From contig NZ_CP120997.1 in assembly GCF_030719295.1 (NCBI RefSeq), positions 2,418,001 through 2,482,000 on the forward strand: a stretch of 64,000 bases of DNA. Reading direction: 5' to 3'. This document shows positions 58,473-64,000 of this stretch, in pieces. Within the stretch, counting starts at the first letter, position 1, and every line of letters starts with the position of its first letter. The position numbers and the translations under genes were made by a program. This stretch comes from Streptomyces sp. Mut1. Lineage in GTDB: Bacteria > Actinomycetota > Actinomycetes > Streptomycetales > Streptomycetaceae. The notes beneath the pieces are model-generated. The model had not been told where the DNA came from. It did no database searches and was given only the letters and a program-made list of their open reading frames with translations.

Positions 58473-58845
58473 CTTCGCCTCCTCGGGTCGGAGGAACACG
58501 CCCTCATGCGGGACCTCCGCGCATGAGGTTATGTGACTGGTTGTACGCGGCACTTGAGATGCCCTGCGTCCCGTCTCGTGGGGAGGGCGGCACGACATCG
58601 GTCAGGGCTTCTCGACCCCCCTGGCCCCGCCCCGGAACGCCGTGCGTTTCCACCGCCCGTAGCGTCACGCCCGGATGATCGTTACTCCAGGCACGGGCGG
58701 GCGCCCACGGCGAGGAATCCCACGAATCCACTCACGCCGACCGGCCGGTACGGCACGGTTCGGCCGCAGGATCTCGCCTTCGCCGTGGCACCACTTCACC
58801 GGGAGTACGCCGACCGCCCACAGGTGCCAGAGAAACGAAACGTCG
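58473..58845. other. Divergent intergenic region between the EEP and PASTA genes
   Basis: These 373 bp hold no gene that I can support. CCTCATGCG (58502-58510) and CGCATGAGG (58520-58528) form a 9-bp inverted repeat with a 9-nt loop in the leader of the EEP gene; it may be an operator or an RNA hairpin. The rest is ordinary GC-rich sequence presumably containing the promoters. Confidence 0.55.
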
Positions 58846-60078
58846 ATGAACCCGTACAACGTCCCGTCCCCACCCCCGCCTCCGCCCTCGCCTGCGCCTT
58901 CGCCTGCGCCTCGGCCTCGGTCTCGGTGGAGGTCCACTCCGGTCGCGCTGGGGCTTCTCCTGCTTGTCGCCCTCACCGGCGCACTCAATCTCTACCTCGG
59001 CGTCATTTCGATGATGGCCGCGATGGTGGCGATGTGGACCGTTCCGCCGTGGCGCTGGTTCGCCAAGCTCGGCGCGACGTTCGGCGCCTTCCTGCTGTTC
59101 GCCATCGGCGGGGGTGTCGGTGGCCAACTCGACGACGGCAGCGCGGACAAGGCCAACGCGAAGGCTCCCGCGGCGGCTGACGAGCGGCATACACCCGCGT
59201 CGTCCGCCACCGCGTCCGCGCCTCCGGTGATCGCCGACTACACCGGCAGGTCACTGGCCGAGGCCGAGAAGGGGACCCGGTCCGTCGGTTTCACCCCCGC
59301 CCGTCACGACGCGTCCACGGAGAACCGCGCCATCCAGAACAGCGCGAACTGGAGCGTGTGTTTCCAGGACGCCGACACGGCCAGGATGACGATCGACTTC
59401 GCGGCGGCCAAAAGCGGCGAGCCGTGCCCGGAGGAGGACGGGGGCCCGCTTGCGTGGCCGATGATGCCGGACGTCGTCGGCGCCACCTACGCCTCGGCGG
59501 TCAAGTCCCTGACGCACGCCGGCATCCCGCTCGGCCGCGTCACGCTGGACGACGTCTACCTCGATGTCGACGCCCCCACCGTCGAGGAAGCGGCGGAGAA
59601 CGGCAACGAGTGGCATGTCTGCTTCCAGTCGCCGGACGACAAGAGGCAGGTGGACTCCACCACCGAGGTCCGACTCGATCTGGGGCGGTGGACCGACGAG
59701 AGCAGCGTGCGGAGTTGTCCCGAGTCCAAGGACACCACCTACGAGGACCCGGCCAACGCTCCCGGCAGCCAAGACGACGGGGACGAGGTCGGAAGCGGAA
59801 GCGCCTCGGGTGGGGACGGGCATTCATCCGGCGCCGCCCGGTCCGAAAGCTCCGGGGGCGGCGGGAGTCCTCCGGGCGGAAACCCCCCGGGCGACGGCTC
59901 CTCCGGCGGGTCGTCCTCCGGCGGCGGTTCCTCGGGCGGAGGCACTTCGGGCGGCAGCGCCGGAACCGTGCACCCCGGGGCGTTCTGCTCTCCCCCCGAC
60001 ACGGGCGTCACCGCCGCCGGCACCCCGATGGTCTGCGGCCCCGCCGCCGACGGGCGCAACCGCTGGCACCACGCCTGA
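58846..60078 (+). CDS. Membrane PASTA-domain protein without a kinase
   Basis: A 410-residue protein. A Pro-rich N-terminus (about 6-28) precedes two to three hydrophobic helices (TPVALGLLLLVALTGALNLYLG, MMAAMVAMWTVPP and ATFGAFLLFAIGGGVGG). Two PASTA-like repeats follow (PPVIADYTGRSLAEAEKGTRSVGF at about 125-190, and MMPDVVGATYASAVKSLTHAGIPLG at about 205-300). A Gly/Ser-rich linker (about 325-375) leads to a C-terminal motif, VHPGAFCSPP...GTPMVCGP, with two Cys. PASTA repeats bind muropeptides or lipid II in cell-wall kinases and PBPs (family knowledge); here no kinase or PBP domain is present. The ATG at 58846 is chosen because upstream residues lack coding bias. Confidence 0.85.
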   Translation: MNPYNVPSPPPPPPSPAPSPAPRPRSRWRSTPVALGLLLLVALTGALNLYLGVISMMAAMVAMWTVPPWRWFAKLGATFGAFLLFAIGGGVGGQLDDGSADKANAKAPAAADERHTPASSATASAPPVIADYTGRSLAEAEKGTRSVGFTPARHDASTENRAIQNSANWSVCFQDADTARMTIDFAAAKSGEPCPEEDGGPLAWPMMPDVVGATYASAVKSLTHAGIPLGRVTLDDVYLDVDAPTVEEAAENGNEWHVCFQSPDDKRQVDSTTEVRLDLGRWTDESSVRSCPESKDTTYEDPANAPGSQDDGDEVGSGSASGGDGHSSGAARSESSGGGGSPPGGNPPGDGSSGGSSSGGGSSGGGTSGGSAGTVHPGAFCSPPDTGVTAAGTPMVCGPAADGRNRWHHA

Positions 60079-60304: not shown

Positions 60305-60307
60305 CGT
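60302..60307 (+). promoter_or_regulatory. -10 hexamer for the MurG-like gene
   Basis: TAGCGT ends 7 nt before the ATG at 60315, with no ribosome binding site, so the mRNA is probably leaderless. The promoter lies on the stop codon of the decayed DUF397 gene. Confidence 0.5.
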
Positions 60308-60314
60308 GCCCCGA

Positions 60315-61490
60315 ATGAACAGTGCTTCCCTCACTCTTCGCGCCTTCCGTCTCATCGTCACGGGCGGAGGCACAGGCGGCCACACATACCCCGCCCTGAC
60401 CGCGATCCGTACTCTCCAGGAGCGGCTGGCCGGTGAGGGGCGAGGGCTCGACGTGCTGTGGATCGGGACGCCCGGCGGCTTGGAGGCCAGGGTTGCCCCG
60501 GCGGAAGGGATCCCCTTCACCACGGTCGCCACCGGCAAGATCCGGCGATCCAGCAATCCGCTGAAGATGCTGAGCCCGGCCAACGCGAAGGACATGGCCC
60601 GTGTACCGCTCGGGGTGGCACAGGCCCGGAAGATCATTTCGGATTTCCGGCCGGATGTAGTGCTTGCCACGGGCGGGTACGTGGCGGTTCCCGCCGGTCT
60701 GGGGGCCCGCTTGTGCAAGCGTCCCCTGGTGCTCCATGAGCAGACCGTGCGGCTGGGACTGGCGAACCGGAAGCTTGCGGGCTCGGCGGCGAAGATCGCG
60801 GTGTCTTCGGAGTCGACCGTTCCGCTGCTGCCGGAATCAGTTCGCGGCGCGGCAGTCGTGACCGGCAACCCGGTGCGGGCAGAGGTCTTGTCGGGGCACC
60901 CGGACAAGGCAGTGACGGCCCTGGGTCTGCACGGCTTCGACCGGCGGTTGCCGACCGTGTACGTCACCGGTGGCGCGCAGGGCTCGCAGCAGATCAACGA
61001 GGTCGTGGCAGGGGCTCTGCCATGGTTGCTGGAGCGGGCGAACGTGATCCACCAGTGCGGTCCGGCGAACGTGGAGGAGCTGCGGCGCCGTGCCGCGGGC
61101 CTCGCGGCCGAGCCGGCGAGCCGCTACCACCTCGCTGGATTCATGGGTCCGGAACTCCCCGACGTGCTGGCTCTCGCCGACGTGGTGGTTTCCCGCAGCG
61201 GTGCCGGCACGCTCGCCGAACTCACCGCCTTGGGCAAGCCGGCCGTATTCATTCCGCTCGCGACGTCCGCCGGTAACGAGCAGGCCCACAACGCCCGGCA
61301 CCTGGCGGAGGCCGGTGCCGCTGTCGCGCTGCTCGGAGAGGTGACGGCGGCGGGCCTCACCGAAGCGGTCGGCCCGCTCCTGACGGACCCCGCCCGTCGC
61401 AACGCGATGGCGGACCGGGCTCGGGCACACGGCAGGCCGGACGCGGCATCCAGGCTCGTGGATGTGATTCTGTCCGCCGCGTCCGGCTGA
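60315..61490 (+). CDS. MurG-family glycosyltransferase paralogue
   Basis: A 391-residue GT-B (family 28) glycosyltransferase. The N-terminal GGGTGGHTYPAL loop, LHEQTVRLGLANR, VTGGAQGSQQINEV, SRSGAGTLAELTALGKP and [16 protein letters not shown] follow MurG, which adds GlcNAc to lipid I. Several positions differ from housekeeping MurG: HEQT for HEQN and HTYPALT after the glycine loop. It does not lie in a dcw cluster. It is therefore probably a second enzyme for a related lipid-linked or natural-product glycosylation (inference). The ATG is chosen by the -10 at 60302. It converges on the phosphatase/DegT/ATP-grasp operon, with 16 bp between stop codons. Confidence 0.87.
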   Translation: MNSASLTLRAFRLIVTGGGTGGHTYPALTAIRTLQERLAGEGRGLDVLWIGTPGGLEARVAPAEGIPFTTVATGKIRRSSNPLKMLSPANAKDMARVPLGVAQARKIISDFRPDVVLATGGYVAVPAGLGARLCKRPLVLHEQTVRLGLANRKLAGSAAKIAVSSESTVPLLPESVRGAAVVTGNPVRAEVLSGHPDKAVTALGLHGFDRRLPTVYVTGGAQGSQQINEVVAGALPWLLERANVIHQCGPANVEELRRRAAGLAAEPASRYHLAGFMGPELPDVLALADVVVSRSGAGTLAELTALGKPAVFIPLATSAGNEQAHNARHLAEAGAAVALLGEVTAAGLTEAVGPLLTDPARRNAMADRARAHGRPDAASRLVDVILSAASG

Positions 61491-61506
61491 TGGCTGATGC
61501 GCGGCG

Positions 61507-61935
61507 TTATAGCCGGCGGCCGAGGTGCAGCGCCGTGCCGGCCTCGATCAGCACGGCGCAGTCGTTGAAGACCGCGTCGTCCTGGCCCATCGGATCGGGA
61601 ACGTCACGGTCTCCCAGGTAGAGGGCGAGCTTGCGCACGTTGCCCTCGGTGCAGATCACGCGCAGCGTTTGCAGGATGGCGGTGTCCATCGCCAGAACGG
61701 TGTCGGCCCAGTCCAGCGCCTCCAGCGTGATCTGCTGGGCACGGTGGGCGCTGAGGTCGTGGCCGAACCGGGCGGCTGCCTTGATCATGGCCGGGTTGGC
61801 GGGCTGGTCCTGCCACTTGCCGATCAGTCCGGCTGATCGGACCTGTACGTCCCACCCGCCGCGGCGGGCAAGTGCGGCAGCCGCGAACGGGGAGCGGCAA
61901 TAGTTCCCCAAGCACACCGTCAGGATGTTCTTCAT
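61507..61935 (-). CDS. Low-molecular-weight protein-tyrosine-phosphatase-like protein
   Basis: A 142-residue phosphatase. The active-site loop CLGNYCRSP (C8, R14) at the N-terminus is the CX5R motif of low-molecular-weight tyrosine phosphatases and arsenate reductases. The general-acid Asp is in DVPDPMG near residue 115. The length fits the family. No tyrosine kinase is nearby. It is the last gene of an operon, coupled by ATGA to the DegT aminotransferase. It might dephosphorylate a protein or a small phosphorylated intermediate of that pathway; this is not known. Confidence 0.9.
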   Translation of the reverse strand: MKNILTVCLGNYCRSPFAAAALARRGGWDVQVRSAGLIGKWQDQPANPAMIKAAARFGHDLSAHRAQQITLEALDWADTVLAMDTAILQTLRVICTEGNVRKLALYLGDRDVPDPMGQDDAVFNDCAVLIEAGTALHLGRRL

Positions 61936-63071
61936 TGCGCGGCCCTCGCAGTCTCGACGGCCTGGCCGAGGGCGGCCACCACGTGGTTGATGTCATCGTC
62001 GGTCAGGTGCTGGTGAAACGGCAGACTGAGGATCTGCCGCCCCGCTTGTTCGGTGACGGGCAGCGCCCGCCGCCATGCCGCGAACGCCGGCTGAAGGTGG
62101 TTCGGTGGGTAGTGGACCCCTACGCCGACCCCGTGAGCGCGCATCTCGGTGAACACCTGGTCGCGGCGAGGGACCCGGATCTGGCAAAGGTGCGGTACGG
62201 CCGTCTCGAGGCCGACGTCAACCAGAGTCACGCCCCGCAGGTGCCTCAGAAGCTCACGGTAGGTGCGCCACTGGTGCCGTCGGGTGTGCACGGTGTCTTC
62301 GAAGTGGTCGAGTTGAGCCAGTCCGATGGCTGCGTTGATGGCCGACAGTTGGTAGCGCAGCCCGAAGGAGTCGACCTGGTAGCAGGTGCGGTTCGCGCGT
62401 TCTCTCTGGGACTGGGTGACTCCGAGGAGTCGCAGCCGGCGCATCGTGTCGGCTTCCTTCTGGGTACGTGGGATGACCATGCCGCCCTGGCCACAGGTCA
62501 GGTTCTTGATCGGCCCGAACGAGAAGCAGGTGAGTGCGCCTGTCGCGCCCACACGGCGGGCTCCGTTGTAGGACCCGAAGGCGTGCGCCGCGTCCTCGAT
62601 GACGCTGATGCCACGTTCCTGAAGCTCGCACTGGATGGGGCCGAGGTCTACCGCCCGGCCTCCGAAGAGGACGGGTAGGACTGCGACCGTGTTCGCGTTG
62701 ACCGCGTCGAGGACCAGTTGGTGGTCGACGCACAGAGTAGAGGGGTTGATCTCGATAAACCGCGGGGTAGCGCCGACAGCCAGGATGGCCTGGACTGTTG
62801 CGCAGAACGTCATGGAGGGGACGACCACCTCGTCACCGGCGCCAACCCGGGCGGCAAGCAACGCCGTGTGAAGGGCCGCGGTTCCCGATGTGACTGCTAC
62901 AGCGTCACTGACCCCAAGGAACTCGGCGATCCTCTGCTCGAACTCCTCCGTAACGGCCGTATGTCCGTACTGGCCGCTCTCCAGGACACGGGTGACTGCC
63001 GCCGCTTCCTTGCCGTGAAGGTAAGGGCTTGCGTTGCGCTTCATGTCGGGCCTTGGGGAAGCGGTGGTCAC
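61932..63071 (-). CDS. DegT/DnrJ/EryC1/StrS-family PLP aminotransferase
   Basis: A 379-residue enzyme of the sugar aminotransferase fold. PLP features are TSGTAALHTAL, Asp in VIEDAAHAFGS and the Schiff-base Lys in SFGPIKNLTCGQGG. The C-terminal half keeps LSAINAAIGLAQL and HYPPNHLQPAF. Family members usually aminate nucleotide-linked keto-sugars, cyclitols or amino-sugars. The GTG at 63071 overlaps the ATP-grasp stop (GTGA) and has GGGAGG 6 nt upstream, so it is preferred over ATG 63044. The neighbouring ATP-grasp ligase and phosphatase suggest a small biosynthetic pathway. Confidence 0.9.
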   Translation of the reverse strand: MTTASPRPDMKRNASPYLHGKEAAAVTRVLESGQYGHTAVTEEFEQRIAEFLGVSDAVAVTSGTAALHTALLAARVGAGDEVVVPSMTFCATVQAILAVGATPRFIEINPSTLCVDHQLVLDAVNANTVAVLPVLFGGRAVDLGPIQCELQERGISVIEDAAHAFGSYNGARRVGATGALTCFSFGPIKNLTCGQGGMVIPRTQKEADTMRRLRLLGVTQSQRERANRTCYQVDSFGLRYQLSAINAAIGLAQLDHFEDTVHTRRHQWRTYRELLRHLRGVTLVDVGLETAVPHLCQIRVPRRDQVFTEMRAHGVGVGVHYPPNHLQPAFAAWRRALPVTEQAGRQILSLPFHQHLTDDDINHVVAALGQAVETARAAQ

Positions 63072-64000
63072 CGGAGTCCTCCCTCCGGATCGGTAAGTGT
63101 TGCGGCGTCGCCGACGGCCAGGGTCTCGACGTAATTGGTCAGGTACATTCCCGCCCGGTAGGTGAGCCGGTCGTGGTCGACCGGCTCCCCGAACAAGCCG
63201 TGCACCATCTGACCGACGAGGTCGGCGCCAGCAGCCTCGGTCAATGGAAACCCTCCAGCAGCTCTGACGTTCAGTTCGGTGATCGTGACGGTGCCCCGAT
63301 CGGTAATAAACCCCTGTACGCAGGACAGGCCGGTGGCACGGACGGCGGAGAGCGTCCTCTCGACGAGGGAGCACACCGTGGAGTCGTGGAACGTGGTGGA
63401 GACGGCGGAGAGTCCCGCCTTCACCAGGTCCCGGCGCCGCAGGATCACCGATGCCCGCCCGGTGCGGTCCACCAGGCAGTCGGCGGTGAACTCTCGGCCT
63501 CGGACCCGCGCCTGCACCAGGGCATCCGGTACAAGTTCACACAGGACGCGTGCCTGCTCTCGCCGCTCGCAGAAGTGAACGCCCTGCGCCCCGTGGCCGC
63601 GTCTCGGTTTGACGACCAGCTCCGTACCGTCGGGCACCTGGTCGATCTCGTCGGGACGGTAGGTGCGAGGGGTGTCGATACCGTGTTCGGTGAGCACATC
63701 GTGGAATTCGGCCTTGTCGATGCAAGTTCGCACCGAAGCGGCGTCCGGAAGCCATAGGCGCACACCGGACGCCTCCAGGCCGGGCGCCATCGTCACAAGC
63801 GGTGGGATGTCGTTCTCGATGCCGGCTACCACCGCATCCACGGCCAGTTCGCGGCAGAGTTCAGCGACGGCCTCGGGGTAGTCGGGCTCATCGGCGCGGG
63901 GGATCACCCTGGGCTGGGTGCCGGGCAGAAGGAGCCCCGGCGCGAGGGGGTGCGCGTCGGTCGCGATGACTCGGTGGCCGAGCCGCTGGAGACTGCGTGT
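63068..64000 (-). CDS. ATP-grasp enzyme, truncated by the window edge
   Basis: At least 311 residues of an ATP-grasp ligase; the frame remains open to base 64000, so the N-terminus lies outside. The visible start RLGHRVIATDAHPLAPGL looks like the pre-ATP-grasp fold. The ATP-binding part is PDGTELVVKPRRGHGAQGVHF (Lys in VVKPRRG), and a later metal-binding Glu/Asn pair is in ITELNVRAAGGFPL. It resembles carbamoyl-phosphate-synthase-like and amino-acid ligases, which join a carboxylate to an amine or amino acid with ATP. Its stop overlaps the DegT start (GTGA). The substrate is unknown. Confidence 0.85.
   Translation of the reverse strand, partial: TRSLQRLGHRVIATDAHPLAPGLLLPGTQPRVIPRADEPDYPEAVAELCRELAVDAVVAGIENDIPPLVTMAPGLEASGVRLWLPDAASVRTCIDKAEFHDVLTEHGIDTPRTYRPDEIDQVPDGTELVVKPRRGHGAQGVHFCERREQARVLCELVPDALVQARVRGREFTADCLVDRTGRASVILRRRDLVKAGLSAVSTTFHDSTVCSLVERTLSAVRATGLSCVQGFITDRGTVTITELNVRAAGGFPLTEAAGADLVGQMVHGLFGEPVDHDRLTYRAGMYLTNYVETLAVGDAATLTDPEGGLR

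Follow-up and report, generated by a model that had tools for sequence, protein, structure and literature searches.

The chromosome piece of Streptomyces sp. Mut1 analysed here (G000:C1:2418001-2482000, 64,000 nucleotides, hereafter the window, whose numbering is used for all coordinates) raises the question of why a genome that already has a MurG-type gene carries a second one, and why this paralogue faces an operon of sugar-modifying enzymes. The paralogue is encoded on the plus strand at 60306–61490, and the operon converges on it from the minus strand. The locus is an accessory module in which a deoxythymidine diphosphate (dTDP)-glucose 4,6-dehydratase (RmlB), an N-acylating enzyme, a DegT-family aminotransferase and, in some of its versions, a phosphatase are placed beside an alternative lipid II synthase of the MglA type.

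The operon comprises four minus-strand genes, in the order RmlB, ATP-grasp ligase, DegT aminotransferase and low-molecular-weight (LMW) phosphatase. The first was found by reading the sequence beyond position 64000, and lies at 64062–65090, past the window end. The ATP-grasp gene (63068–64072; 334 amino acids; PF02655, PF15632 and a PylC-like N-domain) starts outside the window, with 63068–64000 inside it. The pyridoxal phosphate (PLP)-dependent sugar aminotransferase of the DegT family is encoded at 61932–63071 (379 amino acids; PF01041, E 4e-97) and the phosphatase at 61507–61935 (142 amino acids; PF01451, with alignment and motifs in agreement). The RmlB and ATP-grasp genes overlap by 11 nt; the ATP-grasp/DegT and DegT/phosphatase junctions overlap by 4 nt each, as a preliminary description of the window, made from its letters alone, had stated for these three genes. 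The convergence of the MurG-like gene was also borne out, with 16 bases separating its stop codon from that at the phosphatase end of the operon, and so was the higher A/T content of the block: 61507–64000 has 67.0% G+C where the whole window has 72.4%, and equally low values occur in 2.4% of 616 windows of the same length.

Conservation in other genomes had been chosen beforehand as the point on which the idea of a unit turns, and the gene set is indeed conserved as one. The searches covered 295 genomes of the genus, 197 of the order and 394 of the class. The ATP-grasp protein (E 1e-30) matched in 15 of the 295 genomes of the genus; the ten with at least 51% identity, Mut1 included, hold the whole five-gene set, and the five weaker matches (at most 41%) are accompanied by none of the other four genes. 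The DegT protein (E 1e-90) matched in nine of the 197 genomes of the order at ten places, all beside MglA. Through the cassette genes 19 distinct cassette loci were found, and MglA is adjacent in all 19, three of which are damaged (MglA and RmlB truncated in L051, the ligase in two parts 1.3 kb apart in L048, the phosphatase in two pieces in L055). Two cassettes lie in the genome G354 (L054 and L055), and either one is paired with a separate MglA. MglA is convergent on the operon, and outside it, in 23 of 25 cassette loci, and the flanking genes are mostly not common to the loci.

The converse does not hold. A search with the MglA protein gave 51 matches in 47 of the 295 genomes of the genus, matches of at most 45% identity being left out and a match counting as full length when it exceeded 1000 bases. 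Among these 51 loci, ten have a cassette like that of the window (type A), one has a variant cassette (type B), ten keep cassette leftovers beside a full-length MglA gene, 24 have a full-length gene without trace of a cassette, and six have a partial MglA; since some contigs end near the MglA match, the absences are upper bounds. The biosynthetic genes are thus always found with the paralogue, which is free to occur alone (19 of 19 against 11 of 51). A probable loss is seen within the species of the window: in the genome G155 (L086), MglA is 98% identical, and a phosphatase-gene remnant of 52 codons and a gene for an IS605-type TnpB, of the RNA-guided nuclease family, occupy the place of the operon (L086 7076–9009). 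In the class, 33 of the 394 genomes match MglA at E 1e-60.

The cassette also occurs on plasmids. There are 116 matching plasmid records, ten of them listed; three of these ten cover at least 58% of the operon, and in each MglA adjoins it. Two are of type A, one in Streptomyces sp. NBC_01343 and one, lacking an annotated phosphatase, in Nocardia asteroides; the third, in Streptomyces sp. 769, is of type B and retains 33 residues of the phosphatase. Integrase or relaxase genes lie beside the cassette in two of these three plasmids. A quickly built tree of 65 MglA proteins, with weak support at 21 of its 64 inner branches, requires the cassette state to have changed at least 17 times; the starred branches alone force nine changes for type A. 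Different cassette types recur on the same side of MglA.

The MurG paralogue has 394 amino acids from a GTG start, or 391 from the ATG at 60315, and carries PF03033 and PF04101. It falls below the murG equivalog cut-off (TIGR01133; 246.3 against 250.25 bits) and is 32–34% identical to the product of the genome's own MurG-type gene (G000:C1:1780868-1781938). MglA of Kitasatospora viridifaciens (BOQ63_RS12640) has been described as an alternative lipid II synthase that can take the place of MurG, yields wild-type peptidoglycan and also functions in S. coelicolor, whose strain M145 has no mglA, and MurG-like extras were reported in 38% of Streptomyces and Kitasatospora genomes (PMC8092295, available part). 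The published K. viridifaciens mglA primers imply an MRLIVTG start and, when two of them are combined, the end DRLVDVLLSVVDR, so that the comparison covers both termini as deduced from primers. The termini of the paralogue are RLIVTGG...RLVDVILS and those of canonical MurG are VHVVLAGG...LVGMVYEA; judged by these ends, the paralogue matches the published MglA and not MurG. The two MglA proteins are alike in their two domains, in about 31% identity to canonical MurG, in being encoded apart from MurG, in resembling ends as deduced from the primers (N-terminal RLIVTG, C-terminal RLVDV), and in their sporadic occurrence in the Streptomycetaceae (compare PMC8092295, in the part available).

The preliminary description had also noticed altered conserved residues in the paralogue, and these proved to be a constant mark of the type. 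The acceptor loop, named HEQN in MurG (PMC8256705, available part) and HEAN in streptomycete MurG, is HEQT in 65 of 65 MglA-type proteins, with T for Asn, and the donor loop is GGA, with A for the Ser of GGS, again in 65 of 65; the ten canonical MurG proteins compared all have N and S at these positions. Either change could serve an enzyme that bypasses MurG or one that transfers another sugar. The Glu at the position that we take to be the ligand of the uridine diphosphate (UDP) ribose in MurG is retained in all 65.

The tested K. viridifaciens gene probably belongs to the same arrangement. The downstream-flank primer of its mglA deletion fits the DegT gene of L149 (Streptomyces sp. CB02056) on the right strand and in frame, with four mismatches of 22; none of 2000 codon shuffles of that 2-kb L149 region reached four mismatches, and the best match of the same primer in 24 other cassette DegT genes has 7–10. 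This fit of one primer indicates that a cassette DegT gene probably lies downstream of K. viridifaciens mglA. The MglA-type gene of L149, which adjoins a full cassette, has the end DRLVDVLLSVVGR, against the deduced DRLVDVLLSVVDR. A scan with the MglA 5' pattern returned five stretches, none from K. viridifaciens. The main text of PMC8092295, as available, contains no mention of an aminotransferase or an ATP-grasp enzyme, and the neighbouring sugar genes are not discussed there. As a separate observation, its Table 1 lists an unidentified muropeptide (peak 13, m/z 1055.50) that accounts for 5.76% when murG is missing, against 0% in the two other strains, and that may merit comparison with the cassette chemistry.

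What the operon makes can be read from its enzymes. RmlB exceeds the curated cut-off for dTDP-glucose 4,6-dehydratase (TIGR01181; 376.9 against 365.1 bits) and has the DEVYG and YxxxK motifs; an RmlA over its own cut-off and two further RmlB-like genes are encoded elsewhere in the genome. The DegT protein is below the curated cut-offs of the PseC, ArnB, WecE and DesI equivalogs (best PseC, 259.8 against 423.5). Its nearest profiles are PseC and ArnB, and among solved structures ArnB (185 bits) and WbpE (173), which makes amination at C4 likely. In alignments the PLP lysine (FSFGPIKN) is retained in 25 of 25 cassette DegT proteins, and the E, N and R of the ATP-grasp metal/ATP motif in 17 of 17; a strict motif search had missed six of the 17 type A ATP-grasp enzymes and the L149 DegT protein, in which alignment found the residues. 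The AlphaFold model of the ATP-grasp enzyme (predicted local distance difference test score 90) has PDB neighbours that include the CarB-like 2pn1, the L-amino acid ligase 3vot and PylC. The enzyme shares the fold and the conserved E, N and R with CarB-like and PylC-like ligases (2pn1, 4ffl) and L-amino acid ligases (3vot), but its identity to solved structures is at most 23% in the 50 listed matches. A protein-pattern scan of the genome contigs for this enzyme gave nothing usable.

In the pathway that we propose, RmlB would convert dTDP-glucose into a 4-keto-6-deoxy sugar, and DegT would then add an amino group, most likely at C4. To this amine the ATP-grasp enzyme would couple an amino acid or, less probably, another carboxylic acid. 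Taken jointly, RmlB, DegT and the ligase very probably yield a dTDP-4-(N-acylamino)-4,6-dideoxyhexose, which would be a distant likeness of N-acyl-aminosugar nucleotides such as UDP-N-acetylglucosamine (UDP-GlcNAc). The preliminary description had thought of an aminated, ligated sugar or cyclitol; of these, the sugar, both aminated and acylated, has good support, and the cyclitol falls away, the predicted substrate being a dTDP-hexose. It had also left room for the upstream genes to place the operon in a known pathway, and this they do in part: the first steps correspond to the known dTDP-deoxyaminosugar route.

The acylating enzyme is of three kinds. In type A it is the CarB-like ATP-grasp enzyme. 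In type B (L048, L050, L052, L056, L087, L151 and L152), an ATP-grasp enzyme with an L-amino-acid-ligase C-domain stands in the same place, with no phosphatase match. In type C (L155) there is neither kind of ATP-grasp gene, and a formyltransferase-family gene follows DegT at the position of the type A phosphatase. The L155 enzyme carries a Formyl_trans_N domain (77.3 against a cut-off of 26.1) and falls under the NCBIfam cut-offs, with methionyl-tRNA formyltransferase (fmt) as the best (73.8 against 201.5) and the dTDP-4-amino-4,6-dideoxyglucose formyltransferase profile at 40.4 against 238; its best solved-structure matches are mostly sugar N-formyltransferases. In L159, a fragment of an L155-type formyltransferase adjoins a truncated MglA. 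Since the acylating enzyme is exchanged and RmlB and DegT are kept, the constant product would be the aminosugar nucleotide and the variable part the N-acyl group; that three different acylating enzymes accompany one RmlB–DegT pair supports N-acylation. In addition, two type A loci contain an RmlC-family gene, which passes the PF00908 cut-off without reaching that of the rmlC equivalog and lends support to a dTDP route.

The phosphatase has the CX5R(S/T) loop (CLGNYCRS) and the catalytic DP. The tyrosine of the DPY motif is a feature of the phosphotyrosine pocket in LMW protein tyrosine phosphatases. In the alignment, VPDPMGQ stands against VPDPYRR of 5z3m, and a phosphotyrosine substrate is doubtful because DPM replaces the usual DPY. 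The phosphatase is dispensable to the cassette, having no match in the eight loci of types B and C and no annotation in the Nocardia plasmid copy. A capsule system with a Wzb-type phosphatase was considered and set aside, given these phosphatase-free types and the absence of any recurring further family beyond 9 of 59 loci.

The one-way dependence of the cassette on MglA is explained by two readings: either the product disturbs the MurG step, or MglA is the transferase of the product. Our leading reading, held tentatively and at less than an even chance, is the first, in which the operon product, or a derivative of it, disturbs the MurG step and MglA is an insensitive bypass. MglA would make ordinary lipid II with its altered acceptor and donor loops and would let the producer live; once the operon is lost, it would be kept as a stand-alone bypass or resistance gene. 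We favour this bypass because the tested MglA makes ordinary lipid II, because E. coli MurG is reported to show no activity with thymidine diphosphate (TDP)-GlcNAc (PMC5039524, available part), and because murG-like genes also accompany the vanHAX resistance genes (PMC8698665, available part). It is favoured likewise by the retained Glu, the position of MglA outside the convergent operon, and the way in which selection acts on MglA with and without a cassette. The ratio of nonsynonymous to synonymous substitution rates of MglA is 0.08–0.17 in eight cassette-free pairs, 0.11–0.15 in three cassette pairs and 0.13–0.23 in three mixed pairs, which points to similar purifying selection in either state. 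Of 380 columns, 142 are invariant in 24 cassette-linked MglA proteins, while equally large samples drawn from the remaining 41 average 153; the cassette thus brings no constraint of its own to MglA, and the cassette-linked proteins appear, if anything, slightly less conserved. No site is fixed between cassette-linked and cassette-free MglA, as was sought as a sign of changed donor use, and the key motifs are alike. The wider proposal that mobile cassettes make interchangeable N-acylated 4-amino-4,6-dideoxyhexose nucleotides for the MurG step, with a twin version in which MglA caps through lipid I, comes close to an even chance without quite reaching it.

Several points weigh against a product that disturbs the MurG step. 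Among the annotated neighbours, the unit has no regular companion in the form of an exporter, a release step or another glycosyltransferase, and the most frequent additional gene family reaches 9 of 59 loci; the absence of a recurring exporter or release step leaves the route from nucleotide sugar to antibiotic unexplained. The stretches surrounding 22 MglA loci outside the family of the window contain no RmlB-type cassette, which shows that MglA also exists independently. The same one-way pattern would be expected if MglA were useful alone and the cassette needed it as transferase, and with such varied cassette types a single common target is not obvious. Inhibition itself is a prediction, and a second operon that runs into an MglA-like gene fits a glycosyltransferase role at least as well. 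This second sugar operon encodes two radical S-adenosylmethionine proteins, a UDP-galactopyranose-mutase-like protein, WbqC, DegT and a nucleotidyltransferase, is co-directional with the MglA-like gene, and was found in two different families (S. vietnamensis pSVL1, L220 1–7143; L215 9275–16250).

The foremost alternative, which we consider only somewhat less likely than the bypass, is that MglA is the glycosyltransferase of the pathway. It would transfer the sugar of the dTDP-4-N-acylamino-4,6-dideoxyhexose onto lipid I or another carrier lipid like it and so produce an altered lipid II; having no 4-OH, this sugar could serve only as a cap where a glycan chain begins. MglA is the sole glycosyltransferase of the recurring unit, no cassette lacks it in the 19 loci, and G354 pairs each of its two cassettes with an MglA of its own. 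The second, unrelated sugar operon leads into MglA-like genes, and the variation of stereochemistry (RmlC in two loci) and of acylating enzyme resembles the diversification of surface glycans. On the other hand, the K. viridifaciens MglA, which is probably cassette-linked, gives wild-type peptidoglycan (PMC8092295, available part), and the failure of E. coli MurG with TDP-GlcNAc (PMC5039524, likewise in part) speaks against transfer from a dTDP-sugar, as do the UDP-ribose Glu kept in 65 of 65 proteins and key motifs that are the same with and without a cassette. The preliminary description had pictured the sugar on a lipid or peptide carrier; that the MurG-like enzyme mounts it there is not favoured, a family member making the ordinary precursor and the protein being alike in both states.

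An improbable alternative is that a glycosyltransferase encoded at another place takes the sugar nucleotide to build a wall polymer or a secondary metabolite. MglA and the operon would then be neighbours because both serve to change the envelope in response to one stress, with no common step between them. This would suit an operon that often faces a divergent regulator gene and an MglA that stands alone in many genomes, but not the fact that all 19 loci and the plasmid copies, that of Nocardia among them, have MglA and operon side by side, nor the lack of any other family in more than 9 of 59 loci. Co-transfer of MglA and operon on a mobile island without a functional link is very improbable. 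The plasmid copies, the integrase or relaxase genes beside two of three of them and the mostly unshared flanking genes would suit it; hitch-hiking, however, should leave cassettes without MglA, of which the 19 loci contain none, and the at least 17 cassette-state changes, with cassette types recurring on the same side, also speak against it.

Pathways for N-acylated dTDP-4-amino-4,6-dideoxyhexoses in O-antigens and S-layers use RmlA, RmlB, an aminotransferase of DegT or WecE type and a VioF or FdtF-type formyltransferase. The operon resembles them in RmlB and DegT followed by N-acylation, the L155 variant even in its formyltransferase; it differs in that the acylating enzyme is mostly an ATP-grasp ligase and that the partner glycosyltransferase is a MurG paralogue. 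Self-resistance through a paralogue of the target occurs in antibiotic clusters. As there, and as with the murG-like genes by vanHAX (PMC8698665, available part), a second gene for an essential wall enzyme stands beside a biosynthetic or resistance operon; unlike there, the present case is known from genes alone and has no recurring exporter among the annotated neighbours. Among the matches listed from the open-licence literature, on MurG or MglA with such genes and on self-resistance linked to MurG, no description of the unit or of a link between MglA and the operon was found. The single enzyme families and MglA are already known; neither the unit nor the exchange of its acylating enzymes nor its dependence on MglA in one direction appeared among these matches.

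MglA gains in this operon a strict genetic partner with readable chemistry, which makes the reason for spare MurG-like genes testable. If the bypass reading is true, there would be natural chemistry directed at MurG, and the retention of a second lipid II synthase by streptomycetes would be explained. A product acting on MurG would be a natural lead for a target whose inhibitor development was described as having reached a plateau (review, PMC5039524, available part).

Around the module, the gene at 58675–60078, directly upstream of the MurG-like gene, encodes a PASTA-domain protein with a long Ser/Gly-rich tail. The preliminary description had put a pseudogene before the block, which was not borne out: the gene is an open frame, and a homologue of the same called length exists in the same-species genome (L086). 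Beyond the window, a helix-turn-helix (HTH) regulator is encoded divergently from the operon at 65308–66606 (L003:7309-8607). Its two TTA codons, of which the five other genes have none, suggest control dependent on bldA, and a sigma-70 promoter scan found nothing. Divergent regulators vary, being of the HTH type in the Mut1 genome, L216 and L217 and of the NsdA family in L024, L026 and L030. The regulator was rejected as part of the unit, its own family being found in three loci plus L217 and NsdA-family genes elsewhere. Phage matches to MurG (the best 10 of 17, un-annotated, at most 36.6% identity) were judged to be host MurG genes and were not used. The HTH regulator beside the Nocardia plasmid cassette (L216 7352–8710) also exceeds the peptide deformylase cut-off (27.6 against 22.8 bits).

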